Below the pieces are notes generated by a model that ran no database searches, was not told the origin of the DNA, and saw nothing but the letters and a program-made list of their open reading frames with translations. This document shows positions 3,306-45,279 of a DNA stretch of 57,103 nt, piece by piece. Made by a program: the position numbers and the translations under genes. This DNA comes from an uncultured beta proteobacterium. Lineage in GTDB: Bacteria > Pseudomonadota > Gammaproteobacteria > Burkholderiales > Burkholderiaceae_C. Each line of letters starts with the position of its first letter. The stretch's first letter is position 1. Where the stretch lies: assembly GCA_903885585.1 (NCBI GenBank), contig CAISJH010000429.1, positions 1-57,103 on the forward strand, given 5' to 3'.

Positions 3306-3340
3306 AACGCCAACCAGTTAGCCCGTAAACGAGGAGAGTC

Positions 3341-6876: not shown

Positions 6877-6921
6877 GTCTTCAGGCTCATGTCCCGCAGT
6901 CTGAGAGAGGAGTCTGACCCG

Positions 6922-7972: not shown

Positions 7973-8476
7973 ATGCCGCACTCGTTCTCCATCCGCACAT
8001 CCACGCTGGCGCTGGCGCTGGCTTGTACGGCACAGCTTGCTGCGGCCCAGCGGTTTGTGCCTTCCGGGCCCGCTGGAGCCGTAGTCGAAAGACCCACGGT
8101 GGCTGAGTCCACAGCGGTTCAGCTTCCGGCTCGCTTGATTGGCACCGCTGAACCAGCGGCCACAGCCGCCACAGCCGCCGCAGTACCGATGCGCGCCTAC
8201 GAGGTGCATGTGGCTGATGTTCGCCTGGTGGCTTCCATGCAGCGGTGGGCTGCCATGGATGGTGTGCGTCTGCGGTGGGACGCTGATAAGCACGTCCTGA
8301 TCACCGCCCCCATGACGTTCCGGGCGCGCAGCGCGTTCGACGCGATTGCGCAAGTGCTCTCCACATCGGGTATCCGCAACGGCTCGTTTCCGCTGGAAGT
8401 GTGCGAGTACCCGAACCAGCCCGCCCTGCTGCGCATCACGCGTCAGGGCGAGCAAGCCAAAGACTGCCCACAGTGA
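7973..8476 (+). CDS. Second TcpQ-like secreted protein
   Basis: Signal peptide; RLVASMQRWAAMDGVRLRWDADKHVLITAPMTFRARSAFDAIAQVLS. Confidence 0.6.
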   Translation: MPHSFSIRTSTLALALACTAQLAAAQRFVPSGPAGAVVERPTVAESTAVQLPARLIGTAEPAATAATAAAVPMRAYEVHVADVRLVASMQRWAAMDGVRLRWDADKHVLITAPMTFRARSAFDAIAQVLSTSGIRNGSFPLEVCEYPNQPALLRITRQGEQAKDCPQ

Positions 8477-8487
8477 AGGCGCACATC

Positions 8488-10398
8488 ATGAGAGGCCCCA
8501 TTTGCAGACCACTGGTTCTCGCGCTCGGCGTTGCAGCTCTGGCCGGCTGTGAGTCCACCGCGCTCAAGTCCTCAGCCTCAGAGCAGCTCCAAGGCGTTGA
8601 GCGCCAGATCGCCAAAGTCGCACCCCGCCCTGAGACGGCCATCGCCGCGCAGGTCGACGCCGACGTGAGAGGCGGCTTCACTCAGGCCAACAAACTCGCG
8701 CGGCAGCAAGCAGCGATGCCCGTCGCACGCAGAGGCACGACTCCGTGGGTGGGGTCAGAAATGGTGCCCGCAACCACTGAGGACCGGCTGCCCGGCATCT
8801 TCTCCGAGCCCTTCGTGCTGGACTTCTCCGATGTCGCCTCTGGGGGAGTGGTGTCGTTGCAGACGGCAATGGCTCGCGTCAGCAGACTGGCTGGCGTGCC
8901 CATCCGTATTCAGCCGGACGTTTTCTTGCAGATCACGCGCGGTACGGCCAACCAGGGCGCTGCGCCGCCAGCAGGCAACGTCCAACGCCTTGCGCTGCCC
9001 GGCCAACCCAGCAGCCCCAACGCGTCGTCAGGTGTTCCCGTGCTCCCGCTGAATGCGGTGAGCCGACCCGGTGCACCTGGCGCCGGCGCAGCACAAGCCG
9101 CTGGCGCAGCTACCACTGTCAATCCGGGTGGCTCAGCTGGCCCGCGTGCAGCCGAGGCTCCTCCCGCGCCGCCCCGAAATCCCGACTCTGTCTCGCAGTT
9201 CCTGCCCGTTTCGCTGGACAACGTCGAGATGCGCTACAGGGGCAACCTCACTGGCTACCTCAACCAGGTTGCCGACTCTCTAGGCCTTGCCTGGGAGTAC
9301 CGCGACGGCACCGTTGTGCTCATGCGCTACGTCGTCGAGCTTCACGAAGTCTTCTCGTTTCCTGGTGAGGTGCGCTACTCGATGTCCTCCACCGGCACAG
9401 GACAAGGACAGTCCGGCGGGGGGGGCGCCTTCAACGCCGCATCGGCCTCGCTTGAAGTCCTCGAAAAAGGTGATTCGAACCCCTTTGCCAGCATCGAAAA
9501 CGCCGTGAAGGAGATGCTGCAAGAAGCGCCTGGCTCGTCTGTCACCCGCACAGACGGCTCGGGGCGGCTGCTGGTCAAGGCACCGCGCGAGTTCCAAGCT
9601 CGTGTGCGCGACTACATCCGTGCCGAGAACGCGGCCATGCGCCGCCAGGCCAACATCCAGTTCGACATCTATTCGGTGACCACCACCGGTGAAGACGAGC
9701 GCGGAGTGAACTGGTCTTTGATCCTGCAAAAGGCGGGCGAGTCCTTGCTCAACGGCTACACCGCCCCGTCGAGCCTGACCAGCGCTCCTGCCGCCATGGC
9801 CACCATGACGGTGATCTCCAAGGTCGAGGGGAACAAGCTCAGTGAATTGCTGGGTAACTCCAGTGTGCTTCTGCAGGCGCTGAACCAGCAGGGCTTCGCG
9901 GCCCAGCATCGCCCGGTCTCGCTGCTGGCGCTCAATCGCCAGTGGGGGCGCATCTCTCGCATGTCAACCGAGTACTACCTCTCGGAAACCACTCCCGGCC
10001 CAGCCTCCTCCACTGGAGTCGGGGCACCGGGCCTGAAGACCGACAAGGTGACAACTGGGGACCAGTACGTGGCTATCCCGCAGATCCTCGACGACAACAC
10101 CGTGCTCCTGAAGTTCGGCTTGAGCTTGTCGGATCTGCTTGGCATCTTCGACGTGTCGGTGGGCTCCGGTGCACAGGCGCAAAAGATCCAGGCCCCGAAG
10201 GTCAACGCGGTCAACGCGCAGTTCCCGGTGGCCATCCGCCCGGGCGAGGTGGTTGCGGTCACGGGTCTGACCCGTGAGGTCTCGAGCTCCGACAACCGGC
10301 GCCTCGCGGAGAACGCCTCCATGGCGCTGGGCGGCTCAAGTCGCCTCGCACGCAAGCGCGAGCACTTCATCATCTTCATCCGGCCGACGCTCCTGTGA
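8488..10398 (+). CDS. pilN: PilN-family outer membrane secretin lipoprotein
   Basis: Lipobox LAALAGCES; secretin-type C-terminus (FPVAIRPGEVVAVTGLTREVSSSDNRRLAENASMALGGSSRLARKREHFIIFIRPTLL); ATG 8488. Confidence 0.85.
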   Translation: MRGPICRPLVLALGVAALAGCESTALKSSASEQLQGVERQIAKVAPRPETAIAAQVDADVRGGFTQANKLARQQAAMPVARRGTTPWVGSEMVPATTEDRLPGIFSEPFVLDFSDVASGGVVSLQTAMARVSRLAGVPIRIQPDVFLQITRGTANQGAAPPAGNVQRLALPGQPSSPNASSGVPVLPLNAVSRPGAPGAGAAQAAGAATTVNPGGSAGPRAAEAPPAPPRNPDSVSQFLPVSLDNVEMRYRGNLTGYLNQVADSLGLAWEYRDGTVVLMRYVVELHEVFSFPGEVRYSMSSTGTGQGQSGGGGAFNAASASLEVLEKGDSNPFASIENAVKEMLQEAPGSSVTRTDGSGRLLVKAPREFQARVRDYIRAENAAMRRQANIQFDIYSVTTTGEDERGVNWSLILQKAGESLLNGYTAPSSLTSAPAAMATMTVISKVEGNKLSELLGNSSVLLQALNQQGFAAQHRPVSLLALNRQWGRISRMSTEYYLSETTPGPASSTGVGAPGLKTDKVTTGDQYVAIPQILDDNTVLLKFGLSLSDLLGIFDVSVGSGAQAQKIQAPKVNAVNAQFPVAIRPGEVVAVTGLTREVSSSDNRRLAENASMALGGSSRLARKREHFIIFIRPTLL

Positions 10399-11720
10399 CC
10401 GCTCGAGTCATCAAGAGATTCGGCAATCTCAGCCTCGTCGCGGGGCTGAGCTGGACGCCGATGCTGCAGTCCACAGCGCGCGCCCTGTCTGCCGAAGTCC
10501 GGCGTGTTGCAAACGAAGGGGACGCACGCAAGATCCTCCTGTTCAAGCGCAACTCGCTGACCTCGCTCGGCCTCTACGTCGCCGATGACAGTGGGGTTGC
10601 TGATGAACTGGATGATCAGGGCGGCAAGGGGCTGTTCAGCCGAAGCCGTGAGCACAGCCTGGCCGCCGTGGTCGCAAACTTGGCTGGCGACGGCAACGCG
10701 ATCCTCGCCTATCGGGTGGGCAACGGCGAGATGGCCGTGGTGGTCGTCGTGGAGTCCGGCATCCCGACGATCGACGAGATCAAGCCCATCGAGGAAGCAC
10801 AAGCAATCACCTTGCGCTACGCCTCTGGCGGCACCGGGTTTGTGTATGCCGTCTTCACCAACGACATGGGTACGTTCGGCGGTGCAGACCACACGAATCT
10901 GATCGCTGACGAAGCACTGTTCGCCCTCGCCGATAAGACCACCCTGCTGGTGGGCAAGCCCATCAATGTGGTTGCGGTAGCACTTGGTTTGCTAGTGCTG
11001 GTGGCGGCCGTGGCCGGCTACTTCGCGTATGCGGACTACGCATCCAAGCGAGCTCGCCTTGAGGCGGTCAAGCGCGCAGCCGCGGCCGACCCGGCGCCGC
11101 GCTACGAGGCGGCATTGGTGGCAGGGCTCGCCAACATGGGGCCCACCCGGCAGAGCCTGCAGAACCTGCTGAAGATGATGCAGCAGTATCCGGTGAGCCA
11201 AGGCGGCTGGCTGCTCACAGGCATCACCTGCTCCAGCGCTACCGCGCAGTGCGCCTCTTCTTGGCTGCGCGAGTCGGGCACTACCCAAGACCTGGCTTCG
11301 GCTCGCAAGGAACTTGGCGAGCAACTGGAGATCGAAGACTCCTTGCTGCGTGTGCGACTGATTCGCCAGGTGCGCATGGACAACGCAGGCATGCCCGCTG
11401 GCGCCATCACGGGCGGCGCAGAGGCAGCCATCGCATTGGATTCCCTCCTGCAGCGCTGGAGCAACGCAGGGCTCGAGGTCAGCTATTCGCGCACTGCCGC
11501 TCAACCGTGGCCAGCTGCCCCAGGCGTCGAGTTGAGTGCACTGCGCCCGGGCCTCTTGGTCAGTCGCAGCCCTGTCAGCGTGATCGCCCCACTGCACCTG
11601 GCTCAAGAGGTTTTGAGCCAAACGCCTGAGCGGCTTTGGTGGAGCGACCTCAGTACCAGCGTCGACCTCGCCAAGGGCGAGGTTCTTGTGACCTTCAAAG
11701 GATTTGTGTATGGGCGCTAA
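10395..11720 (+). CDS. pilO: Type IVB pilus protein PilO
   Basis: Position between pilN and pilP, 4-bp overlap; single central TM (INVVAVALGLLVLVAAVAGYFAYADY). Confidence 0.7.
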   Translation: MTARVIKRFGNLSLVAGLSWTPMLQSTARALSAEVRRVANEGDARKILLFKRNSLTSLGLYVADDSGVADELDDQGGKGLFSRSREHSLAAVVANLAGDGNAILAYRVGNGEMAVVVVVESGIPTIDEIKPIEEAQAITLRYASGGTGFVYAVFTNDMGTFGGADHTNLIADEALFALADKTTLLVGKPINVVAVALGLLVLVAAVAGYFAYADYASKRARLEAVKRAAAADPAPRYEAALVAGLANMGPTRQSLQNLLKMMQQYPVSQGGWLLTGITCSSATAQCASSWLRESGTTQDLASARKELGEQLEIEDSLLRVRLIRQVRMDNAGMPAGAITGGAEAAIALDSLLQRWSNAGLEVSYSRTAAQPWPAAPGVELSALRPGLLVSRSPVSVIAPLHLAQEVLSQTPERLWWSDLSTSVDLAKGEVLVTFKGFVYGR

Positions 11721-12462
11721 TGATCGCAAGCCGTGGGTTCTGACCTTGGCGGGAGTCGCCCTCGCGATCTGCTCGGCGCAGTCCATGGCTCAACAGTCTG
11801 GGCCTTCTGCGCCCGCCGCGCAGTCCCCAGCTGCCGCTGCAGCGGCACGCGCGGCCAGCGCTGCTACAGCCTCAGACCCGGCCAAGCGTGGCGTCTCGCT
11901 GAATGCGGCACTCACCGCAGCGTCGCCCGTTGTCACGCTGGAGGCTTTGTCCTCCATGAGGATGCTGGAGCAATTGCGCGAGCTGCAGGCCAAGGTTTTG
12001 GCGCTGAACCCGCCACCGCCTGCCCCAGCCCAGGCACAGCCACCCAAGCCGTCGGCCTCTGCACCTCCTCCGGCGTCCGAGTTGCTTGCTTTGCAGAAGG
12101 TGCTTGAGCCGGCTCCCCCCGCGCCGCCGAGGCTGAACCGTGTGGCCGCCATCTATGGCCCGCAGTACGCGCTCAAAGCCGAGATCATCAAGCCCACTGG
12201 CGAAGTGATCGTGGTCAAGCCCGGTGCGGTGCATGAAGGCTTGCGCATTCTGAACATCACACCTGATCTGGTCGAACTGGAGGTTCGAACACCTGCGCCG
12301 ACTCCCGCGCCTGGGGCCGGAGCACAAAAGCTGACTTCCCCGACCGATCAATCCCAAGCTGCATCAAAGCGCCGTCGTGCTGCTGCACTGGCCGCTGCGA
12401 CTCCACCTGCCAGTTCCGAGGTACTGGTGTTACGTCTGCGCGTGGGCGCCACTTTCGAATGA
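11704..12462 (+). CDS. pilP: Type IV pilus biogenesis protein PilP
   Basis: Signal peptide, Pro/Ala linker, RLNRVAAIYGPQYALKAEIIKPTGEVIVVKPGAVHEGLRILNITPDLVEL. Confidence 0.7.
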   Translation: MCMGANDRKPWVLTLAGVALAICSAQSMAQQSGPSAPAAQSPAAAAAARAASAATASDPAKRGVSLNAALTAASPVVTLEALSSMRMLEQLRELQAKVLALNPPPPAPAQAQPPKPSASAPPPASELLALQKVLEPAPPAPPRLNRVAAIYGPQYALKAEIIKPTGEVIVVKPGAVHEGLRILNITPDLVELEVRTPAPTPAPGAGAQKLTSPTDQSQAASKRRRAAALAAATPPASSEVLVLRLRVGATFE

Positions 12463-14348
12463 GCCTGTCATCCATGTTCTTCACCCGAAAGACCTCACCA
12501 AGCGAAGTTCCCTTCATTGCGCCGTCTGGCGCTGCGGGTACGGCGGTGGTGGCCGCACCCAAGCTCGGCGCTGCGGCGCCAAGCTCTCCAGGTCTTGCGC
12601 CCGGCCGCGATGCGCCCATGCCTGCTCCCCTGCCAGGCCAGCGCAAGACGATCACGAGCCTCGACGCGTTGCCCACCGTCCAGGCTCTGCTGACAGTCGG
12701 CGACCGCCAGGTCATGCGAATTCCCAGGGAGTTCGAGCACTGCCTGGCCGCCATTGAGACCGGTCCGAAGAAGGCTGCCATCCTGTACGACACATCGGTG
12801 TCGACCAAAGACGCGTTTCGGCTTGTTCTGCAGCAGCTGCGCAACAAGCTGACCACCAGCGGCTACGTCTTCGAGCGAGGCGGCGACTATCCGTGCAGCA
12901 CCGACGTCATCAAGCTGCTGCTGGATGACCACCTTTCGCGCCACGGTGGCTCCGACAGCTCCGGCGACCCGACCCTGGTACGCAGCCACGCGCGGGAGCG
13001 CTTCCTCAACTGGCTGGACATCGCTGTCCGAGAAGGCGCGACCGACCTGCATGTGCAGGTGGTCGGTGGGGGCCGAGCCCTGGTGCAGATCCGCGTGGGC
13101 GGAGAACTCGAGAACCTGCGCGACGAGCGCAACGGCGTCTACACCGAGCTCGAGGCGATGGAAGCCATGGCCTGGCCGTTCAACTCCGGCTCCAGCAAAG
13201 GCAGCAACTCGTCCAGCCAGTGGGATGCGGGGCGAAACCTGTACTGCATGACCCTGCCCCGGGCAGTCGGCAACCAGCAGATCAGCTTGCGCTACCAGTC
13301 GCTGCGCGGCTATCAGGGCCCCAAGATGATCGCTCGTTTGCTCAACAGCGACGTCAACGCGCCCACGCTGACCTACGAGCAGCTCGGCTACGCCGAGTCG
13401 CAGCGCAAGCTGATGCTGGAGGTCGCCAACATGCCCGCAGGCTTCGTGATCTTCTCGGGCGTGACCGGCTCGGGCAAAACCACGACGCTCAAGACCTTCG
13501 TGGAGTCCCATCCCGGGAACGGCACGATGTCCATCTACTCGATGGAAGACCCGGTCGAGTACCCCATGCGAGGCGTTCACCAGATCACGCTGCAGCGTGA
13601 CGTGGCTGACGATGCGGCCTCCTCCCGCGCCTATAACGAGACGGTAGCCAGCCTCATGCGCGCTGACCCCGACATGGTGATCATCGGCGAGATTCGCGAC
13701 GGAGCCACCGCACGAGCTGGGCAGCAGATTGTGGAAACCGGACACATGGCCCTGGGCACCGTACACGCCCACCTGGCCAGCGGCATCGTTCCCCGGCTCA
13801 CGAACAAGGAGATCGGGATGAGCCGCGATGTCCTTACCAACCCCAACATCCTGTCGCTGCTGGCGTACCAGGCGCTCGTGCCCAAGCTGTGTCCGCACTG
13901 CAGCTTCGACGCGAAGAACGCGCTGGAAAGCGCGAGCGAGCACGATCTCAACGAGGGCGGCGACTCCAGCCAGTACTGGCATCTGCAGGAGCTTCTGGAC
14001 TGCGTGCGATCGCGTTTCAAGCTGGGCACGGACACCCTGAGGTTCCGAAATCCCCATGGCTGCGACAAGTGCAACGGTCGGGGAACCAAGGGCGTGACCG
14101 TCGTGGCGGAGTTGGTCCTGCCCTACCGGCGATGGCTCGAGTTCACGCGCGAGGGGCGCGACTACGAGGCCATGGTGCATTACCGCCAGGGCTCGGACGG
14201 CCACTTCGACACGCCCGACATGAAGGGCAAGACGATCTTCGAACACACGCTCTACAAGGCGCTTCGCGGCTGGGTGGATCCCAGACAGTGCGAGCGCTTC
14301 GATGGGTTCAGGCGCTTCGAGATCGCGCCAAAACTGCGGGGGGCGTGA
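12459..14348 (+). CDS. pilQ: PilQ-type assembly ATPase (GspE/PilB/PilT superfamily)
   Basis: FSGVTGSGKTTTLKTFVE (Walker A), SMEDPVEYPMRGVHQITLQRD, LMRADPDMVIIGEIRDGATARAGQQIVETGHMALGTVHA. Confidence 0.95.
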   Translation: MSLSSMFFTRKTSPSEVPFIAPSGAAGTAVVAAPKLGAAAPSSPGLAPGRDAPMPAPLPGQRKTITSLDALPTVQALLTVGDRQVMRIPREFEHCLAAIETGPKKAAILYDTSVSTKDAFRLVLQQLRNKLTTSGYVFERGGDYPCSTDVIKLLLDDHLSRHGGSDSSGDPTLVRSHARERFLNWLDIAVREGATDLHVQVVGGGRALVQIRVGGELENLRDERNGVYTELEAMEAMAWPFNSGSSKGSNSSSQWDAGRNLYCMTLPRAVGNQQISLRYQSLRGYQGPKMIARLLNSDVNAPTLTYEQLGYAESQRKLMLEVANMPAGFVIFSGVTGSGKTTTLKTFVESHPGNGTMSIYSMEDPVEYPMRGVHQITLQRDVADDAASSRAYNETVASLMRADPDMVIIGEIRDGATARAGQQIVETGHMALGTVHAHLASGIVPRLTNKEIGMSRDVLTNPNILSLLAYQALVPKLCPHCSFDAKNALESASEHDLNEGGDSSQYWHLQELLDCVRSRFKLGTDTLRFRNPHGCDKCNGRGTKGVTVVAELVLPYRRWLEFTREGRDYEAMVHYRQGSDGHFDTPDMKGKTIFEHTLYKALRGWVDPRQCERFDGFRRFEIAPKLRGA

Positions 14349-15575: not shown

Positions 15576-16310
15576 ATGTTCACTTTCTCGCCTTGGCGCA
15601 ACCTGGCCGCATCGACCCTGTCGGCTGCCTTCCTGACCTTCGGCCTGACCACGCCGGCTCAAGCAGATCCCCAGACGATTCGATCCACCTTGCGGCAGCT
15701 GATTCCGAGCATGCCGCAGATCGACGACGTTGCACCCTCGCCGGTTGCGGGGCTGTGGCAGGTGCGCATTGGCGGAACCATGATCTATACCGATGCCTCG
15801 GGGTCGCTCTTGCTTGAGGGGCAGTTGACCGACATGCGCACGCGCACCAATCTGACGCAGGAGGCGATCAACAAGGCGCTTGCCGTGCCGTTCGACTCGT
15901 TGCCGCTTCAAGATGCAGTGATCACGCACCAGGAGGGCAGGGGAGAGCGCCGCATCGCCGTGTTTGCTGATCCGAACTGCGGCTTTTGCAAGCGCTTCGA
16001 GGTGGATCTTCACAAGCTGACCAACGTGCGCGTCTACACGTTCATGCTGCCCTTCTTGGGGCAGAAGTCGGCCGACGATGTGCGCTCCATCATGTGCGCG
16101 GGCGACCCGTCTGCGGTGTGGCGCCAGTGGATGCTCAACGGCGTGGCACCGCAACCCAACCAAGGCGGATGCCAAGCGGCGGCTGCCATCGAGCGCAACC
16201 TCGCATTGGCCCGACGCCTGGGTATCACCGGAACCCCAACGACGCTGTTTGTGAGCCAGCAGCGGCTCTCAGGCGCCGTTCCCCTCGACCAAGTCCAGTC
16301 TCGTCTTTGA
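15576..16310 (+). CDS. DsbC/DsbG-like periplasmic disulfide isomerase
   Basis: Signal peptide; AVFADPNCGFCKRFEVDLHKLTNVRVYTFMLPFLG (CGFC); TGTPTTLFVSQQRLSG. Confidence 0.9.
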   Translation: MFTFSPWRNLAASTLSAAFLTFGLTTPAQADPQTIRSTLRQLIPSMPQIDDVAPSPVAGLWQVRIGGTMIYTDASGSLLLEGQLTDMRTRTNLTQEAINKALAVPFDSLPLQDAVITHQEGRGERRIAVFADPNCGFCKRFEVDLHKLTNVRVYTFMLPFLGQKSADDVRSIMCAGDPSAVWRQWMLNGVAPQPNQGGCQAAAAIERNLALARRLGITGTPTTLFVSQQRLSGAVPLDQVQSRL

Positions 16311-16398
16311 GGTTGCGCGACCGCTGAATATGATGGCGCAAACAAATTGCGCGTGCGTATACTTACCAAAATAGCCTGTTTGCATCTGGACGTCATCA

Positions 16399-18066
16399 AT
16401 GCGCCTCAAACCTTTCCGCAGGGTGGCTGCGCGCGGGCAGCGTGGCGTCTACATGCTCGAGCTCTCTCTGGCGCTGCTCATCGGGGCTTTGGCTGCTGTG
16501 GGCGCGCAACGAGAGATCGTTCGCACGCAACTGCTACGCAGTGCAGAGATCGAGGCTGACAACCTCAAAATCTATCGGCAGGCGCTGCAGGACTACACAG
16601 ACGAGTTTTACGACGAGCTGCAGTCCAACCTTCCGGTCACCAAAAACGGCGTCAACCTCGCCGCAGGGGCCGCAGCGGGCCAGAACATGCAGCCGACGGT
16701 GGCCAACCTCATTGCGATGGGCTACCTGCCCAACGGCTTTACCAACGCGTCGCTGCTGACTGACGCGGGCACCTTCCTCAACCTCATTCAGCGCACCCCT
16801 GCTGGATGTGTCGCCCAGGCCTGCGACATCACGGGGCTGGCCTACATAAGCCAGCCCATCCTTGTGCGCAACAGCGGCGCAGACACCAACACGGTGGCCA
16901 TCGGCCAGATGCTCTCGCGTATCGGCGGTTTGTCCGGCACCTCGGTCGAAACCACACCGGCTGTGCTCACGGGTGCTGGCGCAGGCTGGACAGCGGCCAA
17001 CCCAGTGGCCGGCAATCCCGCCGGCCTTGTTGGAGCGCGCTTTGGAGTCGGCACATCGGTGTTCAACGCATACGTCCGGCGCAACGACCTGAGAGACCCC
17101 AACCTCCTCGGACCTCTGACGGTGGCTGGCGCGACTCAGCTGGGCGGCAATTTGGGCGTGGGTGGTAACGCAGGCGTCGCCGGGACGCTGACCGTCAATG
17201 GCGCCACAACGCTCTCAGGCGCCCTCAATGTGACGGGCGCAACCACCTTGGGTGCGCTGTCAACCTCCGGGCAACTCACATCGTCTGCGGACATCGGGTC
17301 CTCCTCGGTGGCAGGTTGTCTGCGGGCAGCGTTGCAGGCCAACGGTGATTTGGTGTCCAGAGCAGCCGACTGCGTGACTCGTGTCCTGGTAAGCAACTCC
17401 GGCATCAACCTGTCGAGTTCTACTGGCGTTTTGAGGGCATCCCTGGACGGCGACAACGGGGTGCTGCAGCTCAACAACGGTGCTGGCGCAGCCCTCATCT
17501 CGGCCAGCGGCTCGACCGGTCGCCTGCAAGCGCAGACCATCAACGCGACGCTGTCGGCCACACGAGGTGCTGCTTGCACTTCTGCAGGCGACCTCGCCGC
17601 AGACAGTGCAGCCGGTGGCACGGTGCTGGTGTGCAGATCAGGCACTTGGCGCGCTGCGGGCCTGGATCAGGAGACTGCGGGCAGCGCCTGTGCGGTCAAC
17701 GGCCAACTGTCCGTCGCCTCCAGCGGCGCTGCGCTCGTCTGCAGAGCCTCGACCTGGGTTCTCCTCAACGACAGACTGCCTGTAGCCGTGCCCATGGAGC
17801 TCTATTCGGGCAACGGCGAGGGCAACGTGCCCGCACCATCGTGCGGCACCGGTGGAGTCAGGGACATCGTGGTGGCAGCGCTTCAGGGAGGCTCCGACTA
17901 CGGCGGTCTACCGCCCCGTAATCGATTCGAGGTGCGAGTCAGTGGCGCGGGTCCATGGACTGTGCAGCCCGTGCTGACTGACTCCTCAGGCACGGGGTAC
18001 CTCACGTCCTTCGGTGCCGAGGCCTACAACCTCGGGTGGACCGCAACCACCTATTGCAAGTACTGA
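16399..18066 (+). CDS. pilV: PilV-like minor pilin / tip protein
   Basis: GQRGVYMLELSLALLIGALAAVGAQ prepilin-like N-terminus; beta-repeat neck (LTVNGATTLSGALNVTGATTLGALS); variable C-terminus with VCRSGTW/VCRASTW. Confidence 0.8.
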   Translation: MRLKPFRRVAARGQRGVYMLELSLALLIGALAAVGAQREIVRTQLLRSAEIEADNLKIYRQALQDYTDEFYDELQSNLPVTKNGVNLAAGAAAGQNMQPTVANLIAMGYLPNGFTNASLLTDAGTFLNLIQRTPAGCVAQACDITGLAYISQPILVRNSGADTNTVAIGQMLSRIGGLSGTSVETTPAVLTGAGAGWTAANPVAGNPAGLVGARFGVGTSVFNAYVRRNDLRDPNLLGPLTVAGATQLGGNLGVGGNAGVAGTLTVNGATTLSGALNVTGATTLGALSTSGQLTSSADIGSSSVAGCLRAALQANGDLVSRAADCVTRVLVSNSGINLSSSTGVLRASLDGDNGVLQLNNGAGAALISASGSTGRLQAQTINATLSATRGAACTSAGDLAADSAAGGTVLVCRSGTWRAAGLDQETAGSACAVNGQLSVASSGAALVCRASTWVLLNDRLPVAVPMELYSGNGEGNVPAPSCGTGGVRDIVVAALQGGSDYGGLPPRNRFEVRVSGAGPWTVQPVLTDSSGTGYLTSFGAEAYNLGWTATTYCKY

Positions 18067-18071
18067 CCATC

Positions 18072-18893
18072 ATGCTGCGTCGCTTGATCCTGGTGGCCAG
18101 CCTGCTGATGGCTGGATCCGCAACTCATGCCAACTCAGCTGGCCAACTCAGCGCCAATGACCAGGCGCGGATAAGCGGCTCTACCAAGCTGCAAACTTGG
18201 CGCGGCGTGTCCACGCCCTATAACGCAACCGCCCCGGTGGCAGTCAAGAGCGGTTCCGGCGAGCAGACGCACCAAGCAACCAAGGGATTTACCTGCCAAA
18301 CCGGCCAGTGGGCCATGCAGGGGGGCACGATTCGATGCCTGCTCATCGAGGAGGCCGGGGTCTCTTCATTCGGACAGGGCAAGGTGGTGCTGGTGAACCT
18401 GGCGCTGCCTGTAGAAGGCTCCTCCACCGGCACCTTGTTGCGGCTTGTCGGTGGAACGTCCGATCTGCGCGTGGACATCTTCGACCAGGCGGGAACGCTG
18501 CGCGGCTCCTGCTATGTGATCACAGCTGATCGTCGCTGCGATCTTGGCTCGCCAAGCACTATCCACCCCAACCTAGCCCTAGACCCGCGCTATCTGTCGG
18601 GTGGCTCGCTTTACTCGGCCTTTGACCTGGTCTCGGCCAACATGAGCTTTGCGGGGTCCTTGGCGGGCACCGCGCTGCAAGACAGCTATGTGGTGTCAGT
18701 GCGCGTCTCCGCACAAGGGCTGCACCTGGACATCGCAGGGATCTTCTATTCGCCTACCGACAGTCGAGGGGCGAGTTTTTCAATGATGCCGATCTACGCC
18801 AGCGCCACCTTGGGCCTGGCGCAAATGGCAGCCATGCCCAGCGGCTCCATCTGGACTGCTGGAGGCTCACGTAACGCTCCAACAGGGCCTTGA
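18072..18893 (+). CDS. Secreted protein of the pil operon
   Basis: ATG just after the pilV stop; signal peptide LILVASLLMAGSATHA; GFTCQTGQWAMQGGTIRC. Confidence 0.7.
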   Translation: MLRRLILVASLLMAGSATHANSAGQLSANDQARISGSTKLQTWRGVSTPYNATAPVAVKSGSGEQTHQATKGFTCQTGQWAMQGGTIRCLLIEEAGVSSFGQGKVVLVNLALPVEGSSTGTLLRLVGGTSDLRVDIFDQAGTLRGSCYVITADRRCDLGSPSTIHPNLALDPRYLSGGSLYSAFDLVSANMSFAGSLAGTALQDSYVVSVRVSAQGLHLDIAGIFYSPTDSRGASFSMMPIYASATLGLAQMAAMPSGSIWTAGGSRNAPTGP

Positions 18894-18901
18894 GGACCGT
18901 C

Positions 18902-21900
18902 ATGGTGAATCGCGCGGCGTTGCATCTCATTGCCTGGGCCTTCACGGGGCTGTGCCTGCTGGTCAGTGCCTTTTCGAGCTACGCACAGACCGCTGGCAGC
19001 GGGACATCCAGCAACACACCCAATACCCGGATTCAGCGCGGCAGCGCCCTGCCCGGGGCGGGTTCTGGGTTTTCCTGCGGGCCTGGGATGACGTACGTGA
19101 TGGTGGACGGCGTGGCACGTTGCAAGGTCACCGACGTCGCATCTTCGCTGCCCACCGCCTCCTGCCCCGCGTTCGGGATGGCTGCGCCGTTTCCGACCGT
19201 GGAGGGCTGCACCTACGTGCTGCCCCTGACCGGTGGCGGGGGGCGTGTAACTCGCAGCAACTGGAACTCGTCGACCTTCAGGGGAACGGCGAGCCTTGCC
19301 TGCAACAACGGCTCCTGGCAGGTCTTGTCGTCGACCTGTGCACCGGTCCCCACGCTCACTTCGAGCGTCAGCAGCGCGTTCGTGGCGCAGGGCGCTGCGT
19401 CGCCGCGATTGATGTGGACCTCGACGAACGCCACGCCGTCTTCAGCTGCCGTGGTTTGCACCGGAGCCAATCCACTGTCGCAGTCGTCCTTGCCCGCCAA
19501 CGGTGAGGTCAGCCTGCCTACATCAGCCATTGGCCTGACCAACTGCGTTTTGACGGTGCAAGGCGGTGCAGGCTCGTCGGCAACTTCGTCTGCTTCCTGG
19601 ACAGTCCAGGCACCAGCAAACTGTCTTGCCACGACCATGAGCAGTGGCGCTTGCAGCTACGCTGTCTCGGGGCTTTCTCACGGGTTCTCGGGAGACTTCG
19701 CGACGACATCTCCCGGCTTCACCGGCAGCATTCGCGCCACCTGCTCCAACGGCTCACTGGCCTACTCCAACGAGTCGTGCGTCGAACTTGCGAGCATTGG
19801 CGCATTCTCGGCAGCGCCGGCGAGTGTCCTCACTGGCCAGGCGGTTAGCTTGACCTGGTCAGCCTCTGGTGCCAGCTCCCTGGTGCTGAGCTGCTCGGGC
19901 GCGAATGCAAGGGCGTCGCAAGCGGTTGCCTCTTCAGGCTCACTGGCGGTCTCCACGTCCAACGCCGGTTCGACCACCTGCACATTGCTGGCCACGGGCG
20001 CAAGTGGTTCAACGGCTTCAAGGAGCGTCACCTACTCGGTGACTGCGCCAGCGGCCTGCAGTGCTGCATCTACAAGCAGCGGTGCCTGCACGTTCTCTGT
20101 CCCAGCGCTTTCCAGCGGTACCAGCACCACGGTGAATGACTCAACACCTGGCCACACCGGCAGCATCTCGGCAACGTGCTCCAACGGCAGCCTGAGCTAT
20201 GGCGCAGCGAGTTGCGTGCCAGATGGGTGTGCGGCGACAACCGTCATGAGCGGCTCATGCAGTTTCCCCGTGGGAGCTCTGGCGCACGGAGGATCGTCCT
20301 CGGTTGTCAACACAGCATCGGGCTTTTCCGGCTCTGCCACCGCCACATGCAACGCTGGTGCGGTCGCGCTGTCGGGCACGATTTGCGCTGCCGCGACCAA
20401 CCCTTGCCCAGCGGGCTCGCAGACCTCCGGCCTTTGCACCTACGCCTACGGAGCACTCGCGCACGGTGCCACAGGAGCGGCCACCAACACGGCACCTGGA
20501 TTCTCAGGTTCGGCCACAGCGGCCTGCACCCACGGGACCGTATCGCTGTCGGGCGCGAGCTGCACCTCGGCGACGAACGCGTGCGTAGCGGGCTCACAGA
20601 CTTCAGGAAGTTGCACTTACTCCTACGGAGCGCTCTCGCACGGTGCCACCGGATCTGCCACGAACACGGCATCGGGCTTTTCAGGTTCTGCCACGGCGAC
20701 CTGCACCAACGGGACCGTATCGCTGTCTGGCGCGAGCTGCACCTCGACGACGAATGCCTGCGCAGCGGGCGCACAGACTTCGGGCAGTTGCACCTACGCC
20801 TATGGAGCACTCACGCACGGTGCCACAGGATCGGCCACCAACACGGCATCGGGCTTCGCCGGCTCGGCCACGGCGACCTGCACCAACGGCTCAGTGTCGC
20901 TGTCGGGAGCGAGCTGCACCTCGACGACGAACCCGTGCGCGGCGGGCTCTCGGACTGTCGGCAGCTGCACCTATTCCTTTGGAGCGCTGACCCACAACAA
21001 CACGGGCGCGGCTACCAACACGGCGTCGGGCTTCGCCGGCTCGGCCACGGCGACCTGCACCAACGGGACCGTATCGCTGTCTGGCGCGAGCTGCACCTCG
21101 ACGACGGATGCCTGCGCAGCGGGTTCGCAGACAGTAGGCAGCTGCACGTACTCTTTTGGAGCGCTGACCCACAACAACACGGGCGCGGCTACCAACACGG
21201 CCTCAGGCTTCTCCGGTTCGGCCACAGCGACCTGCACCAACGGAAGTGTGTCGCTGTCAGGTGCGAGCTGCACCTCGACGACTAACGCCTGTGCGGCAGG
21301 TTCGCAGACCGTGGGCAGCTGCACCTACTCCTTTGGAGCGCTGACCCACAACAACACGGGCGCTGCCACCAACACGACCTCGGGCTTCTCCGGTTCGGCC
21401 ACAGCGACCTGTACCAACGGATCAGTCTCGCTGTCGGGTGCGAGCTGCACCTCGACGACGAATGCCTGCGCGGCTGGCTCGCAGACTGTGGGCAGCTGCA
21501 CCTACTCCTTTGGAGCGCTGACCCACAACAACACGGGCGCTGCCACTAACACGACCTCGGGTTTCACGGGCAGCGCCCTGGCGACCTGCACCAACGGATC
21601 AGTCTCGCTGTCGGGCTCGAGCTGCACCTCGACGACGAATGCTTGTGCGGCGGCCGCGACCTCCAGTGGCGCGTGCTCCTTCTCAATTCCGGCCCTCACG
21701 CACAATGGTGCAACGACCGTAGCCGACTCCACTGCTGGCTACACGGGCAACATCACGGCGACCTGTGCGAACGGAAACCTGAGCTACAGCGCACCGAGTT
21801 GCGCCGCTGATGGCTGTGCGGCCACGAGCAGGACCAGTGGTGCGTGCTCTTTCTCGATTCCGGCTCTGGCACACAACGGCACCACAACCGTAGCAGATTC

Positions 21901-24900
21901 CACTGCTGGCTACACGGGCAACATCACGGCGTCGTGCTCTGCAGGCAGCCTCAGCTACAGCGGAGCTTCCTGCGTCTTGGACGTCGTTGGCTGCGCCGCC
22001 GCCACAACCTCCAGTGGGTCATGCTCGTTTGCGATCCCGGCGCTGGCTCACAACGGTACCTCCACTGTGGGCGACTCCACTGCTGGCTACACCGGAAATA
22101 TCACGGCATCCTGTAACAACGGTAGCTTGGCATTCAGCTCTGCGAGTTGTGTTGCTGACGTGGTTCCACCATGCGCGGCGGCAACGACCTCTAGCGGTTC
22201 GTGCGCCTTCTCGATTCCTGCTCTGGCGGACAACGGCACCACCACGGTGGCGGACTCCACCGCTGGCTATACGGGCAGCATCACGGCGTCATGCTCCAAC
22301 GGCAGTCTGAGCTACAGCGGGGCGAGTTGCGTGGCCGATAGCTGTTCCGCCACAACGAGGACCAGCGGCGCTTGCTCGTTCTCGATTCCTGCACTGAGCA
22401 GTGGTACGAGCACCACGGTGGCGGACTCCACTGCCGGCCACACCGGCAGCATCACGGCCTCCTGCTCTGCGGGCAGCCTGAGCTACAGCGCAGCGTCCTG
22501 CAATCCAGATAGCTGCGCTGCGGCCACGACCTCGAGTGGGGCGTGCTCCTTCTCGGTTCCTGCACTGAGCAGTGGCACGAGCACCACGGTGGCGGACTCC
22601 ACTGCCGGCTACAGCGGCAGCATCACGGCGTCCTGTACGAATGGCGCCCTTAGCTACAGCGCGCCAAGCTGCAATCCCGACGGCTGTGTGGCTGGTTCGC
22701 GTACCTCAGGAGCTTGCTCGTTCTCTCACGGTGCCCTCGCGCATGGTGCGTCTGTAACGGCCGCCACTGCGACGGCGGGCTACACGGGCTTTGCCGACCT
22801 GAGTTGTTCAGCGGGCGCGGTGACTGTGTCGAACGCGAGTTGTGCGTCTGGGTGCGCGGCAGGAGTGCAGTCATCTGGCAGCTGCAACTACACGTACGGC
22901 GCGTTGGGGCACGGGACTACGGGTGCTGCAACCAACTTGACCGCAGGCTTTACCGGTTCAGCCACTGCAACCTGCTCGAACGGTACGGTAACGCTGTCGG
23001 GAGCGAGCTGCACCTCGACGACGAACCCTTGTGCGGCGGGCTCACAGACTGTAGGCAGTTGCACCTATTCGTTTGGAGCGCTGACTCACAACAACACGGG
23101 GTCGGCCACCAACACGACCGACGGTTTCACGGGAAGCGCCCTGGCGACCTGCACCAACGGCTCAGTCTCGCTGTCGGGAGCGAGCTGCACCTCGACGACG
23201 AACCCTTGCGCGGCGGGCTCACAGACTGTAGGCAGCTGCACCTATTCTTTTGGAGCGCTGACCCACAACAACACGGGGTCGGCTACCAACACGACATCGG
23301 GTTTCTCGGGCAATGCGCTGGCGACCTGCACCAACGGGACCGTGACACTGTCTGGCGCGACCTGCACAGAACTGTGTCCCTCCGCTACCAGGCCTGTGGC
23401 TTCTGAAAACGGCACATGCTCGGCGGGATTCACCGGAAGCACGGTTCGCACCAGGACAGTCTCTTGCGGCACGACGGGTTGGACGACCGGTGCCTGGGGG
23501 GCGTGGGACACCAGTAGCTGCTCGGCTGTTGCGCCGGCAAACCCCTGGATCAGCGCCCCCGCAAGCGTGGCATCAGATCAGACAATTTCCCTGTCCTGGG
23601 GCGCGACGGGCACCGTTACCTCGTACGCGGTGACTCTCACGAGTGGCCCCTACTCGAACACCATTGGGTTTGGGCTATCCACGTCTTGGTCTGGTCTAGC
23701 CGGAAACAATGGGTTCACCAACGGAAGCTGGTCAGTGTCCGTCAGGGCCTGCAATGGCACGGCATGCTCCACAGCTTCAGCGCCAATGTCGGTGACTTGC
23801 CCAGCGGAGCAGCCATCGACGTCCGAGTCGGCAGCGTGCGACGCAGGGTCGGTTGGTACCAAGACCAGGACGCGCAGCGTGACCTGCCCGGCAGGAGGAA
23901 CGGGCTGGAGTGTCTCCAGCTTTGGGGCATGGAACACAAGCGCTTGTGTTTCAGACTGCGCTGCCACGACGCTTTCAAGTGGCGCTTGCTCTTTCTCGAT
24001 CCCCGGCACGCCAAGTGGTCAGAGCCGGACCGTCGCAGACTCGACGCCAGGCTATACGGGAAGCATCACGGCAACCTGCACAAATGGCACCTGGAGTTCT
24101 AGTGGCGCGTCCTGCGGTCAGGATTGTTCGGCCAGCAGCGTCACACCATCAGGTAGCAGCTGCACGTACAGCTATAGCGTCATTGGGCACGGTAGCACTG
24201 GTGCAGCAAACAACGTGACCAGCGGCTTCTCGGGTTCGGGCACTGCACGGTGCAACAACGGTGCTGTGACTATCGACGCCGGAGCAACGTGTGGCCGCAC
24301 AGCTCCGTCGTCTGCGTGGGTGACGTCTTCCTCAAGCGTTCAGTCCACCCAGAACATAAGTCTGTCTTGGGGGGCATCCGGTACGGTCACCAGCTATCTT
24401 CTGCGTATGTCGGGTCCTGGTGTGACAGGAACGCTTGATATGGGAACAAGTACCTCGTACACGGGGGGCGCTGGTGCATCTGGATTCACCAACGGAACAT
24501 TCAACTTCTGGGTCACGGCGTGCAACGGTACTGCATGCAGTGCGGAAAGCGCTCCGTCGACGACCGCAGTAACTTGCTCGCTTCCTGCTCCTGCCACTAG
24601 GCAAACGGATGTCTGTGATGCAGGGTATACAGGAACCAGGTTCCGTGATCGTGCGGTAACGTGCAACATCTCCGATGGTTCTAAAGATTGGACAGTTGGC
24701 GCTTTCCCTTCTACGTGGAATACAAGTGGATGCGCGCAAGTCGTAGCGCAAGGTCAGTGCCAAATCATCAGCGCAGTTACGTCTGGTGCTGTTTCTACTT
24801 GGTCACCCGGCGGATCCAGGACCAGCCAGGTATCACTAGGGAAGTATCTTCAAGGAGAGGAGTGGTGCGAGGGTGTGAATGGCGGTTATTGCCAAGACAG

Positions 24901-25114
24901 GGTTCCGGACTGTCAAAATGGAAATCCTGGCGTCTATGGTTGCGACACTGTGGAGTATGTGTGCTGGGCTAGACCAGTGCAGGCCTGCAATTACAATGGG
25001 TTTTTGGTTCCCGATGGGAGTGGCTTTACGCCATTTGGATTTCCAACAAGGTACTGCCGGCAGGGTGTTTTGCAGTCAACACCGTACTTTGGACCAAACA
25101 GTTTTGGCTATTGA
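18902..25114 (+). CDS. Giant secreted Cys-rich tandem-repeat protein, putative pilus-associated adhesin
   Basis: Single ~2,070-aa ORF (ORF track opens at TTG 18890, overlapping the upstream stop); signal peptide; more than 20 four-Cys modules of ~55-59 aa plus Ig-like and TSP1-like segments. Confidence 0.85.
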   Translation: MVNRAALHLIAWAFTGLCLLVSAFSSYAQTAGSGTSSNTPNTRIQRGSALPGAGSGFSCGPGMTYVMVDGVARCKVTDVASSLPTASCPAFGMAAPFPTVEGCTYVLPLTGGGGRVTRSNWNSSTFRGTASLACNNGSWQVLSSTCAPVPTLTSSVSSAFVAQGAASPRLMWTSTNATPSSAAVVCTGANPLSQSSLPANGEVSLPTSAIGLTNCVLTVQGGAGSSATSSASWTVQAPANCLATTMSSGACSYAVSGLSHGFSGDFATTSPGFTGSIRATCSNGSLAYSNESCVELASIGAFSAAPASVLTGQAVSLTWSASGASSLVLSCSGANARASQAVASSGSLAVSTSNAGSTTCTLLATGASGSTASRSVTYSVTAPAACSAASTSSGACTFSVPALSSGTSTTVNDSTPGHTGSISATCSNGSLSYGAASCVPDGCAATTVMSGSCSFPVGALAHGGSSSVVNTASGFSGSATATCNAGAVALSGTICAAATNPCPAGSQTSGLCTYAYGALAHGATGAATNTAPGFSGSATAACTHGTVSLSGASCTSATNACVAGSQTSGSCTYSYGALSHGATGSATNTASGFSGSATATCTNGTVSLSGASCTSTTNACAAGAQTSGSCTYAYGALTHGATGSATNTASGFAGSATATCTNGSVSLSGASCTSTTNPCAAGSRTVGSCTYSFGALTHNNTGAATNTASGFAGSATATCTNGTVSLSGASCTSTTDACAAGSQTVGSCTYSFGALTHNNTGAATNTASGFSGSATATCTNGSVSLSGASCTSTTNACAAGSQTVGSCTYSFGALTHNNTGAATNTTSGFSGSATATCTNGSVSLSGASCTSTTNACAAGSQTVGSCTYSFGALTHNNTGAATNTTSGFTGSALATCTNGSVSLSGSSCTSTTNACAAAATSSGACSFSIPALTHNGATTVADSTAGYTGNITATCANGNLSYSAPSCAADGCAATSRTSGACSFSIPALAHNGTTTVADSTAGYTGNITASCSAGSLSYSGASCVLDVVGCAAATTSSGSCSFAIPALAHNGTSTVGDSTAGYTGNITASCNNGSLAFSSASCVADVVPPCAAATTSSGSCAFSIPALADNGTTTVADSTAGYTGSITASCSNGSLSYSGASCVADSCSATTRTSGACSFSIPALSSGTSTTVADSTAGHTGSITASCSAGSLSYSAASCNPDSCAAATTSSGACSFSVPALSSGTSTTVADSTAGYSGSITASCTNGALSYSAPSCNPDGCVAGSRTSGACSFSHGALAHGASVTAATATAGYTGFADLSCSAGAVTVSNASCASGCAAGVQSSGSCNYTYGALGHGTTGAATNLTAGFTGSATATCSNGTVTLSGASCTSTTNPCAAGSQTVGSCTYSFGALTHNNTGSATNTTDGFTGSALATCTNGSVSLSGASCTSTTNPCAAGSQTVGSCTYSFGALTHNNTGSATNTTSGFSGNALATCTNGTVTLSGATCTELCPSATRPVASENGTCSAGFTGSTVRTRTVSCGTTGWTTGAWGAWDTSSCSAVAPANPWISAPASVASDQTISLSWGATGTVTSYAVTLTSGPYSNTIGFGLSTSWSGLAGNNGFTNGSWSVSVRACNGTACSTASAPMSVTCPAEQPSTSESAACDAGSVGTKTRTRSVTCPAGGTGWSVSSFGAWNTSACVSDCAATTLSSGACSFSIPGTPSGQSRTVADSTPGYTGSITATCTNGTWSSSGASCGQDCSASSVTPSGSSCTYSYSVIGHGSTGAANNVTSGFSGSGTARCNNGAVTIDAGATCGRTAPSSAWVTSSSSVQSTQNISLSWGASGTVTSYLLRMSGPGVTGTLDMGTSTSYTGGAGASGFTNGTFNFWVTACNGTACSAESAPSTTAVTCSLPAPATRQTDVCDAGYTGTRFRDRAVTCNISDGSKDWTVGAFPSTWNTSGCAQVVAQGQCQIISAVTSGAVSTWSPGGSRTSQVSLGKYLQGEEWCEGVNGGYCQDRVPDCQNGNPGVYGCDTVEYVCWARPVQACNYNGFLVPDGSGFTPFGFPTRYCRQGVLQSTPYFGPNSFGY
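20403..21650 (+). repeat. 174-bp (58-aa) in-frame tandem repeats, about 7 units
   Basis: Repeated CAAGSQTVGSCTYSFGALTHNNTGAATNT[AT]SGFSGSATATCTNGSVSLSGASCTSTTN; adjacent units nearly identical at nucleotide level. Confidence 0.9.
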
Positions 25115-25480
25115 GCGATCTCCAGTGGGGACTATTGCTGATTTCCGTATGTTCGATCCATTTCTGTCAGACTAAAGTATTGATATAAATTACCTCGCAG
25201 GCGAGATCAATCTGCTTTGTCCGCATTGACGTGGCCCATAGCCGCCTCCCTGGTAGGTCGTAGTTACCTCATACCCCCAGATCGTGACCGAGGCGGCGCT
25301 ACGGCCTAGGATTTTGATCTGTTATGGTATCCCGGAAGTTGGATGAAGCACCCAGATACCACGTTCATCCCTGCAACGCTAGCACCACCACTTGCGACTC
25401 TCGCGAGTCTTTGATTGTTGTCTCTTTGGCGGCTTCAGTATTCAATTGGCGCTATTATTGTGGGCGTCACAAGAATATAT

Positions 25481-26581
25481 CTAATTATTTGCGGGAGTAG
25501 TGAATTGCCAAATCTTCTTCTCTGGCGTGCCAGCTATCTTTAATTCAATCGTTACTGTGTATGTTGTGTTCGGTTGCAGCGAATCAAGAGGAAGGAGAAA
25601 TGCTTGGTTGGGTTGTATATGCTTTGCCGGATCTGTTTTGTGTGTGTGTGTGCGTGCGGAGATGGCTTGTCCGTTTGGTCCTCTCATTTCGAATAAATCA
25701 AGGGACGTAATCTCAGCACTGGCTTCTATGGTTACAGGAAACCCGAATACAGCACCCAAGCCAAGATCAGGCGCAGGATGAGGTACTTCGTTTCCAAACC
25801 TTAGTCCGTCCGCGACGGACCCTGGAGTCGGGTACACCATCAATTGAGGATTCTTCGGGTACTGACACTGTACCTGGCAGCCCATTGATAAGCCCACCGT
25901 AGACGATACTGTGTAATCTCCCAGGTTTGTTGCGCGCGATAGAGTGTAGTAACTCGCACCGTAGCCCGCATCTCTCCAGGGGCCTAGAGCTCCAAAGCGG
26001 TGATACACGGTATTCAGTTGACCTTTGGCGAACTGCCTTCCCAGCTCTTGGGCTGTCATTAAGCCTGCTCCAGAAAGCTTCGACGCGTTTGCTTCCTGCT
26101 GGGTGCTAAAGGTTGTCCCTTCAGCAATTGCTGAAAGTATCTCTGTGTTAGCCCCTAAATATCCTGCGGCTCGCACACGGTCGGATGGCGAGTACCCCGT
26201 AAAGTTCGGCGTGCCTGGCACTTGATAGTGAGCACCTTCCGGGATGGACTCAGCGTTGGCAATCCACTTGGAGTGGTCCTGTGCAGCCTTTTGGAGTGCT
26301 GCGTTGGGCAGCAGATAGCCTTGGCCGTAGCGCACGCGAGCTTCATTGAGGTACGACAAGGCTGCTATGGCGCCTTGGCTCAGGCCGCTCAGATCTGGCG
26401 CTTGCAACTGCAGCGCAGTGGGGTCTGGTACGGGCGCTGTGGGCGTTACAGGGGTTGATGGTCCTGAGATCTGTGCAGTACCGCCCGAGCCGCCGCCTCC
26501 GCCTCCGCAGGCCGCAAGTGCGGCTGCCGTCATCAGTGTCAGCGCGCGTTGCGCATAAGAGTTGTGTCGAGTGCGGGCCAT
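25481..26581 (-). CDS. CAP-superfamily (SCP/PR-1-like) lipoprotein
   Basis: LMTAAALAACGGGGGG lipobox; LSYLNEARVRYGQGYLLPNAALQKAAQDHSKWIANAE...PEGAHYQVPGTPNFTGYSPSDRVRAAGY. Confidence 0.8.
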   Translation of the reverse strand: MARTRHNSYAQRALTLMTAAALAACGGGGGGSGGTAQISGPSTPVTPTAPVPDPTALQLQAPDLSGLSQGAIAALSYLNEARVRYGQGYLLPNAALQKAAQDHSKWIANAESIPEGAHYQVPGTPNFTGYSPSDRVRAAGYLGANTEILSAIAEGTTFSTQQEANASKLSGAGLMTAQELGRQFAKGQLNTVYHRFGALGPWRDAGYGASYYTLSRATNLGDYTVSSTVGLSMGCQVQCQYPKNPQLMVYPTPGSVADGLRFGNEVPHPAPDLGLGAVFGFPVTIEASAEITSLDLFEMRGPNGQAISARTHTHKTDPAKHIQPNQAFLLPLDSLQPNTTYTVTIELKIAGTPEKKIWQFTTPANN

Positions 26582-30965: not shown

Positions 30966-31189
30966 CCCAGACATAGACACGAGCACGGTGAGCAGCCGCT
31001 CCGCACCGCCTCAAGCGGAGGCCGTGCATTTGCAACGCCGCTAGCGCAGCGCTACCATCTCCCTCACACGTTCATGTCGTCTCATTCTCCGGCGACGCAT
31101 TGCATTTCAGCCCGCATGACGGGTTCGAGGCTCACTTCTGAGCCGCTCTGCAAGCATTTGTGCAGCGCTACGCGCTGCTGGAGATTCTT

Positions 31190-44955: not shown

Positions 44956-45279
44956 TCAGCTCTTGTCCTTTGATGCGAGCTCAAGGTTCTTGCCAGACGC
45001 GATCGCCTCTCGAAACCTCGTCCCAGCCTGCCACTTGGGCACCCTGGTCGGCTTCAGGCTGACGACCTCGCGGTTCGGAATACGTACTTGCCGCGCGGCG
45101 CGTTTTTCCACGCGCCAGGTTCCCCAACCGGCAATGGTGACTGACTCGCCGCGGCGCAGCGAGTCAGTCACCGTGTCTTGCAAGGCCGAGAGCATCGCTT
45201 CGATCCTGGCCTTGGGAAGTGCGGCTGCTTGGGCTGCGAGCCGCTGGGCAATCTCGTCGACCAGCTGAGTCCGGTTCAT
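44956..45279 (-). CDS. HU-family DNA-binding protein
   Basis: MNRTQLVDEIAQRLAAQAAALPKARIEAMLSALQDTVTDSLRRGESVTIAGWGTWRVEKRAARQVRIPNREVVSLKPTRVPKWQAGTRFREAI. Confidence 0.85.
   Translation of the reverse strand: MNRTQLVDEIAQRLAAQAAALPKARIEAMLSALQDTVTDSLRRGESVTIAGWGTWRVEKRAARQVRIPNREVVSLKPTRVPKWQAGTRFREAIASGKNLELASKDKS

Follow-up and report, generated by a model that had tools for sequence, protein, structure and literature searches.

The window analysed here is one entire contig of 57,103 bases (CAISJH010000429.1) of an uncultured beta-proteobacterium, in a bin that holds 862 contigs. It carries a type IVB pil operon that continues past pilV, the gene of the minor tip pilin, into two further genes on the same strand, one for a secreted protein of 273 amino acids (aa) and one for a giant Cys-rich repeat protein of 2,070 aa. 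These two may be pilus-partner genes by which a conjugative plasmid-like element extends its IVB pil operon past pilV, and their products would then serve in bridging cells during mating, a reading that we hold to be evenly balanced. The gene order, the repeat modules, the conserved neighbourhood and the homologues on which it draws were seen directly. The initial annotation had proposed an adhesin module associated with the pilus or with mate recognition, and, judged from the sequence, an adhesin or mating module still appears to be the best reading of the two proteins. The main features are as follows.

16399-18066, + strand: pilV, minor tip pilin of 555 aa, with a prepilin-type N terminus and Cys modules in the C-terminal half
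18072-18893, + strand: gene of the 273-aa secreted protein, signal peptide judged by eye
18902-25114, + strand: gene of the giant secreted Cys-rich repeat protein, with a signal peptide, a head motif from 19067, modules, and fn3-like and Cys-rich C-terminal parts
19622-24292, + strand: span of the 22 full four-Cys modules of the giant protein (6.9e-16 to 4.1e-24 each with a hidden Markov model (HMM) profile built from these same modules), with breaks at about 19781-20056 and 23366-23956
25390-25409, + strand: terminator-like stem 3' of the giant gene, a consensus match only
25481-26581, - strand: gene of a CAP-domain lipoprotein with a Big_5-like C terminus, convergent with the giant gene (PF00188, 21.2 bits; PF13205, 21.2 bits)

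Organization of the genes downstream of pilV

The three genes lie head to tail. The stop codon of pilV (18066) is 5 nt ahead of the ATG at 18072, and the 273-aa open reading frame (ORF), which ends at 18893, is followed by the giant ORF. The frame of the latter is open from a TTG at 18890 to 25114. This TTG is the less likely start, because the ATG at 18902 has a Shine-Dalgarno-like stretch upstream (TGAGGA, 18891-18896) and opens a putative signal peptide (MVNRAALHLIAWAFTGLCLLVSAFSSYAQ); translation most likely begins at this ATG, giving 2,070 aa and therefore a gap of 8 nt. The ORF positions of the initial annotation (pilV 16399-18066, the second ORF 18072-18893, the giant one to 25114 with about 2,070 aa) were thus recovered, as was the contiguity of the genes, but the overlap it had placed at 18890-18893 gives way to the 8-nt gap. 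Its view that both products are secreted agrees with their signal peptides, as judged by eye. From pilV to the 3' end of the giant gene, the + strand showed no terminator-like site besides one weak site within the giant gene; the total of such sites was not above that in shuffled sequences. We infer that pilV, the 273-aa ORF and the giant ORF are co-transcribed.

The giant repeat protein

The giant protein contains 123 Cys, and Ser, Thr, Ala and Gly are abundant. It comprises 22 full modules of 53 aa with the pattern C-x9-C-x29-C-x11-C, regularly spaced except for a longer spacing in the last one, and one degenerate module at residues 99-146. The modules fall into two subtypes, with up to 89% DNA identity between neighbours of type A, 63-79% between neighbours of type B and about 50% between A and B. 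Within subtypes, the ratio of non-synonymous to synonymous differences (pN/pS) among module copies is 0.26-0.30, which indicates that the modules are under purifying selection. The repeat array holds no exact duplication of at least 70 bp, and assembly collapse is therefore unlikely. Together with the homologues found in two other genomes, these results led us to reject a frame or assembly artefact, and the regularity of the modules likewise argues against a chance ORF.

A structural model of three modules predicted all-beta units with a local confidence score (pLDDT) of 91, the mutual arrangement of the units being uncertain (pTM 0.50). No family of Pfam, NCBIfam, PHROG or PDB covers the modules, and Foldseek with the three-repeat model gave no PDB match at E<=0.001 and only weak viral matches, some of them to poxvirus proteins, so that among known structures there was no convincing relative by sequence or by fold. 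A Sushi/CCP module was considered and rejected, since there is no Pfam Sushi match, the Cys spacing differs and no PDB fold matched at the same threshold. The C-terminal part of the giant contains an fn3-like region, sub-threshold in Pfam (E 0.025), and further Cys-rich segments.

A head motif shared by the two proteins

The 273-aa ORF matched no database family, and its fold prediction was unusable (pLDDT 32). It has in common with the giant protein a head motif, GFxCxxGx(x)WxMxxGxxxC. When 675 kb were searched in six frames with a relaxed form of this pattern, only the 273-aa ORF, the giant ORF and two relatives from metagenome-assembled genomes (MAGs) were found. In local alignment of the 273-aa ORF with the head of one of these relatives, that of Methylibium, the score was reached by none of 2,000 shuffles. 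Support for a shared head is moderate, because the pattern was relaxed after the 273-aa ORF had been seen. The 273-aa protein is probably a short partner bearing the docking head of the giant.

Relatives of the giant protein

The relatives were found by a family-wide search with the module profile at a threshold of 0.01; an HMM cut-off of 1e-6 in a thin order-wide sample gave none. The same head and 53-aa modules occur in a Rhodoferax MAG (JAUXWC010000281.1, a 536-aa frame with 6-7 modules) and in a Methylibium MAG (PNNH01000013.1, about 620 aa). All three proteins have the head GFxCxxGxx[WY]xMxxGxxxC and the first module in common, and the giant fits the layout of the MAG repeat family, with a signal peptide, the head motif, a degenerate first module and four-Cys modules. 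The full head region was present in 3 of 401 genomes of the family, namely those of the giant and the two MAG relatives, the same three from which the profile was built, and a genome scan with this region returned the two MAG relatives only. Both relatives resemble the giant also in a nearby CAP lipoprotein gene; in Rhodoferax it is convergent at a distance of about 75 bp, and in Methylibium it is on the same strand, separated from the relative by one gene of 762 aa. They differ from it in having 5-7 modules instead of 22, other C termini and no pil genes in their surroundings.

The island of the Rhodoferax relative encodes a RepB-type primase, a MobA/VirD2 relaxase and a phage-type integrase; it has the appearance of a small integrative mobilizable element (L068 402-11647), and the CAP lipoprotein and the repeat protein are part of its visible cargo. 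Related or divergent modules were also detected in unrelated large proteins of other genomes, and the module itself is therefore not pilus-specific. No direct plasmid relative of the giant or of the 273-aa ORF was found in 72,556 records, a search in which low-complexity filtering may hide repeats, and none in the viral contigs scanned.

The position behind pilV in other pil loci

The initial annotation had assumed that pilV is normally the last gene of such a locus. This does not hold for the pil loci of Comamonadaceae and Oxalobacteraceae, in which a gene for a secreted protein right 3' of pilV is common. About a dozen beta-proteobacterial pil loci have such a gene immediately behind pilV, mostly with unrelated sequences; secreted-looking ORFs occupy this position in Variovorax SRS16, Comamonas aquatica, strain OS-4, Janthinobacterium and the genomes G397, G407 (two loci), G670 (two loci), G528 and G328. 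Direct comparison of six of these ORFs revealed no significant similarity, and none of the small ones gave a significant overall match to the 273-aa ORF.

Two of these loci are close parallels. In Janthinobacterium pJAB4160 (NZ_CP062063.1), pilV is followed in tandem by a 128-aa and a 361-aa Cys-rich secreted ORF with N-terminal regions that are 39% identical; the architecture of the present locus, in which a small protein and a larger Cys-rich one with homologous heads are encoded in tandem, is repeated there. The 361-aa ORF is unannotated (L041 13840-14925). In G528, pilV is followed at 13 bp by the gene of a 504-aa secreted protein, whose eight tandem Cys repeats belong to a different family.

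The CAP lipoprotein

For the lipoprotein encoded opposite the giant, the PF00188 match of 21.2 bits barely meets the cut-off of 21.1, and the PF13205 match of 21.2 bits misses that of 23.6. An alignment of the family shows a lipobox and the CAP region, and its homologues are annotated as CAP domain-containing proteins. The family has 71 plasmid records at E<=1e-6. In the plasmid loci inspected, a non-random sample, the CAP gene was within about 5 kb of pilV in all 10 and convergent with it in 8. Two CAP lipoproteins carry single repeat units themselves. That of G595 (C41; L163 7999-9288) has one N-terminal 53-aa module of the repeat family of the giant (1.3e-12), and that of the G528 pil locus (C22) has one unit in which 18 of 23 residues are identical to a unit of the locus's own repeat protein; there, at locus L179, the genes of the 504-aa repeat protein (2379-3890) and of the CAP lipoprotein (8055-9320) are convergent. 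As single repeat units of this kind are present in CAP proteins elsewhere, the lipoprotein facing the giant is probably a surface partner. This sharing of modules is a first hint of what such proteins bind.

Proposed mechanism and known parallels

For the export route, the docking, the ligand or receptor and the role in mating we infer the following steps. The giant and the 273-aa protein would leave the cytoplasm via Sec, in keeping with the signal peptides seen in their sequences, and in the periplasm the DsbC-like protein of the operon would help to form their many disulfides; such an isomerase is a plausible helper for a protein with 123 Cys. The common N-terminal head would dock both proteins on the pilus machine or on the PilV tip, and extension of the pilus would drive them out through the PilN secretin, by analogy with the action of TcpB and CofB on TcpF and CofJ. 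Outside the cell, the giant would form a string of about 23 disulfide-stapled beta beads with fn3-like and Cys-rich end domains, bridging donor and recipient, with the 273-aa protein as a short companion bearing the same head and the CAP lipoprotein as a probable surface partner.

The model for such export is TcpF and CofJ, soluble proteins secreted by the type IVb pili TCP of Vibrio cholerae and CFA/III of enterotoxigenic Escherichia coli (ETEC). These proteins bind the minor pilin through their N terminus, which was proposed as the docking signal, and the known signals of this type are dissimilar to each other (PMC9565799). Our two proteins resemble them in the Sec signal peptide, the gene position in a pilus operon and the availability of a minor-pilin partner. 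They differ in that the pilus is of the R64-like, conjugation type, that the giant consists of 2,070 aa built on tandem Cys modules and that binding to PilV is putative. Family searches revealed no likeness to TcpF or CofJ in sequence; no direct comparison was made.

Conjugative IVB pili matter for transfer in broth and not on a solid support (PMC9045228), and a PilV-type tip binds lipopolysaccharide (PMC5297154). Giant secreted Ig-like proteins of IncHI and IncA/C plasmids aid conjugation, and those of IncP2 plasmids are encoded near a pilin gene (PMC6764697, PMC8730810). RSP, RSP2 and the other Big proteins of the IncHI and IncA/C plasmids are, like the protein described here, giant, beta-rich, of secreted type and encoded in a transfer region. 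They are needed for efficient conjugation, a role that is putative for our giant, which has Cys-rich modules, lies in a type IVB pil operon and has no detectable Ig-like Big domain, the only Pfam signal being the sub-threshold fn3 match.

We put forward a wider proposal, which is speculative and, in our estimation, rather doubtful. Conjugative IVB pili of beta-proteobacteria would act as secretion machines, and the position behind pilV would be a variable slot for their cargo, namely fast-diverging Cys-rich proteins and repeat fibres that use a common docking head and select or capture recipients, with the module-bearing CAP lipoprotein as surface receptor or anchor. This slot and its CAP partner would be the novel part. 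Partner proteins of the TcpF/CofJ type, secreted by pili, have been described in intestinal pathogens. Should the conjugative IVB pili carried by environmental plasmids likewise export partners, PilV and its shufflon would not be the only determinants of recipient choice, and the way in which large plasmids find their recipients in water and soil would become accessible to testing.

Evaluation of the pilus link and of alternative explanations

The link to the pilus is partly supported: gene position, head sharing and the parallels in other loci argue for it, and relatives in places devoid of pil genes weaken it. Several observations weigh against the link. The similarity of the 273-aa ORF to the head of the giant itself is modest (shuffle p of about 0.01). 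No pil genes were found around the Rhodoferax and Methylibium relatives, so the pilus cannot be obligatory for the family. The initial annotation had named homologues lying consistently away from pil loci as the finding that would speak against it, and this is half the case: the two closest relatives of the giant have no pil genes nearby, but both are near a CAP lipoprotein gene of the family that is found opposite pilV in plasmids and behind the giant here, and Janthinobacterium and G528 have Cys-rich secreted proteins right behind pilV. Among genomes, pil genes were near members of the CAP family in only 3 of 40 loci, and no secreted ORF follows pilV in Polaromonas P1-6 and CJ2, Rhodoferax T118, Cupriavidus P-10, B. 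vietnamiensis, G432 and G515. No common motif emerged from the mature N termini of 14 proteins encoded behind pilV (27 of 60 shuffles were as good), which agrees with the published dissimilarity of the known secretion signals. Unlike TcpF and CofJ, in whose short mature N-terminal signals such a residue is critical, neither the 273-aa protein nor the giant has an aromatic residue in its first approximately 20 mature residues. TraN is the only transfer gene recognised on the contig, the two TraU genes of the bin being on other contigs, and binning is uncertain.

The strongest alternative, which we regard as possible though clearly the less probable account, is that the giant serves as a general adhesin, of the cell surface or of biofilms, and travels as cargo of mobile elements; it would lie between pilV and the CAP gene through insertion, would not work with the pilus, and would be cell-associated or released by another route. 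The location of the closest relatives in a relaxase/integrase island and in another island, both free of pil genes, fits this account, as do the related modules in unrelated large proteins of other genomes in the family. The operon-tight spacing with pilV, the head in common with the 273-aa neighbour and the parallel Cys-rich secreted genes of Janthinobacterium and G528 fit it poorly.

It is unlikely that the giant acts in the manner of the IncHI RSP and Big proteins, exported through an F-type type IV secretion system (T4SS) of the element, binding flagella and conjugative pili, slowing motility and aiding contact with no part for the IVB pilus. Size and repeat build are similar, the contig encodes TraN and the bin TraU, export of RSP requires TrhC (PMC6764697), and the Big gene of an IncC plasmid lies between dsbC and traL (PMC8730810); however, the giant has no Big domain, its gene belongs to a pil and not a tra operon, and other T4SS genes are not on the contig. 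Very improbable is a coat, formed by the 273-aa and giant proteins and anchored by the CAP lipoprotein, that would protect the surface of the donor, for instance against pilus-using phages or redundant mating. Modules are common to CAP lipoproteins and repeat proteins, and the slot behind pilV is highly variable between loci, as antagonistic selection would predict, but this variability fits recipient recognition equally well and there is no direct sign of exclusion or phage defence.

The pil gene cluster and other genes of the contig

By name, the relatives of the window are Comamonadaceae and other Burkholderiales. The type IVB pil locus spans about 6.9-18.1 kb in the order pilS, two TcpQ-like genes, pilN, pilO, pilP, pilQ, pilR, a dsbC-like gene and pilV. 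Besides pilV, the genes of the cluster, and traN, are as follows.

6889-7470, + strand: pilS, major type IVB prepilin, here 5' of the secretin gene and away from pilV (Pfam PilS PF08805 1e-16, N_methyl 7.7e-07)
7474-7962 and 7973-8476, + strand: two TcpQ/PilL-like genes (PF10671 3.2e-15 and 2.5e-09)
8401-10398, + strand: pilN, IVB secretin (TIGR02520 8.6e-50, under the curated cut-off; PF00263 3.2e-05)
10395-11720, + strand: pilO, pilin accessory protein (PF06864 4.3e-10)
11704-12462, + strand: pilP, assigned by its position between pilO and pilQ, with no family match
12459-14348, + strand: pilQ, assembly ATPase (GspE/PilB families to 3.6e-39; 43% identity to a Variovorax SRS16 plasmid protein)
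14345-15502, + strand: pilR, inner-membrane platform protein, start uncertain (frame open from 13889; PF00482 2.1e-10)
15576-16310, + strand: dsbC-like gene of a periplasmic disulfide isomerase, between pilR and pilV (PF10411 1.5e-18, PF13098 7.9e-19)
50988-54731, + strand: F-type TraN, mating-pair stabilisation protein of 1,247 aa (NF009019 1.8e-114, PF06986 1.8e-58)

The gene set of an R64-type IVB locus is present, with homologues of PilN (under the curated cut-off), PilO, PilQ, PilR, PilS, TcpQ/PilL and PilV found together and PilP by position only, which bears out the identity first given to the locus. The two plasmid proteins in pilV position that matched PilV best are 28-31% identical to it along about 75% of its length, and an alignment with 13 other PilV proteins revealed conserved columns, e.g. 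C137, C142, N201-P202, C412, C431, C448, C482 and C553. The thin-pilus locus of R64 and TP114, which ends in pilV with a shufflon, has homologues of PilN, PilO, PilQ, PilR, PilS and PilV, the last being the presumed tip adhesin; the present locus differs from it by the lack of shufflon inverted repeats at pilV, by the upstream pilS, by the inserted dsbC and by the secreted genes 3' of pilV. A shufflon was looked for and rejected, as 16300-19700 contains only isolated weak inverted pairs and no recombinase was among the genes scanned around pilV.

No dsbC-like gene was seen between pilR and pilV in those annotated pil loci of plasmids that we inspected. In other loci, pilS occupies the position between pilR and pilV where the DsbC-like gene is located here. 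Two IscB genes are inserted around pilS in the plasmid pil locus of Polaromonas CJ2 (L086 13840-15159, 17013-18407).

An F-type transfer system, putatively linked to this contig, is likely, because the contig encodes TraN and other contigs of the bin carry two TraU genes. TraN has a long N-terminal extension, its first approximately 450 aa falling outside the TraN models. A third gene with a TcpQ domain (45276-45932) lies on the opposite strand, distant from the pil cluster. The gene of a SNF2-family helicase (37366-40710), which matches a model of pilus expression-regulating Snf2 at 5e-77, under the cut-off of that model, adjoins the gene of a PgfS-like glycosyltransferase (36253-37344). The element also encodes an adenosylcobalamin-dependent (class II) ribonucleotide reductase (31160-33736), and a fragment of a group II intron reverse transcriptase/maturase is present at the edge of the contig (25-882).

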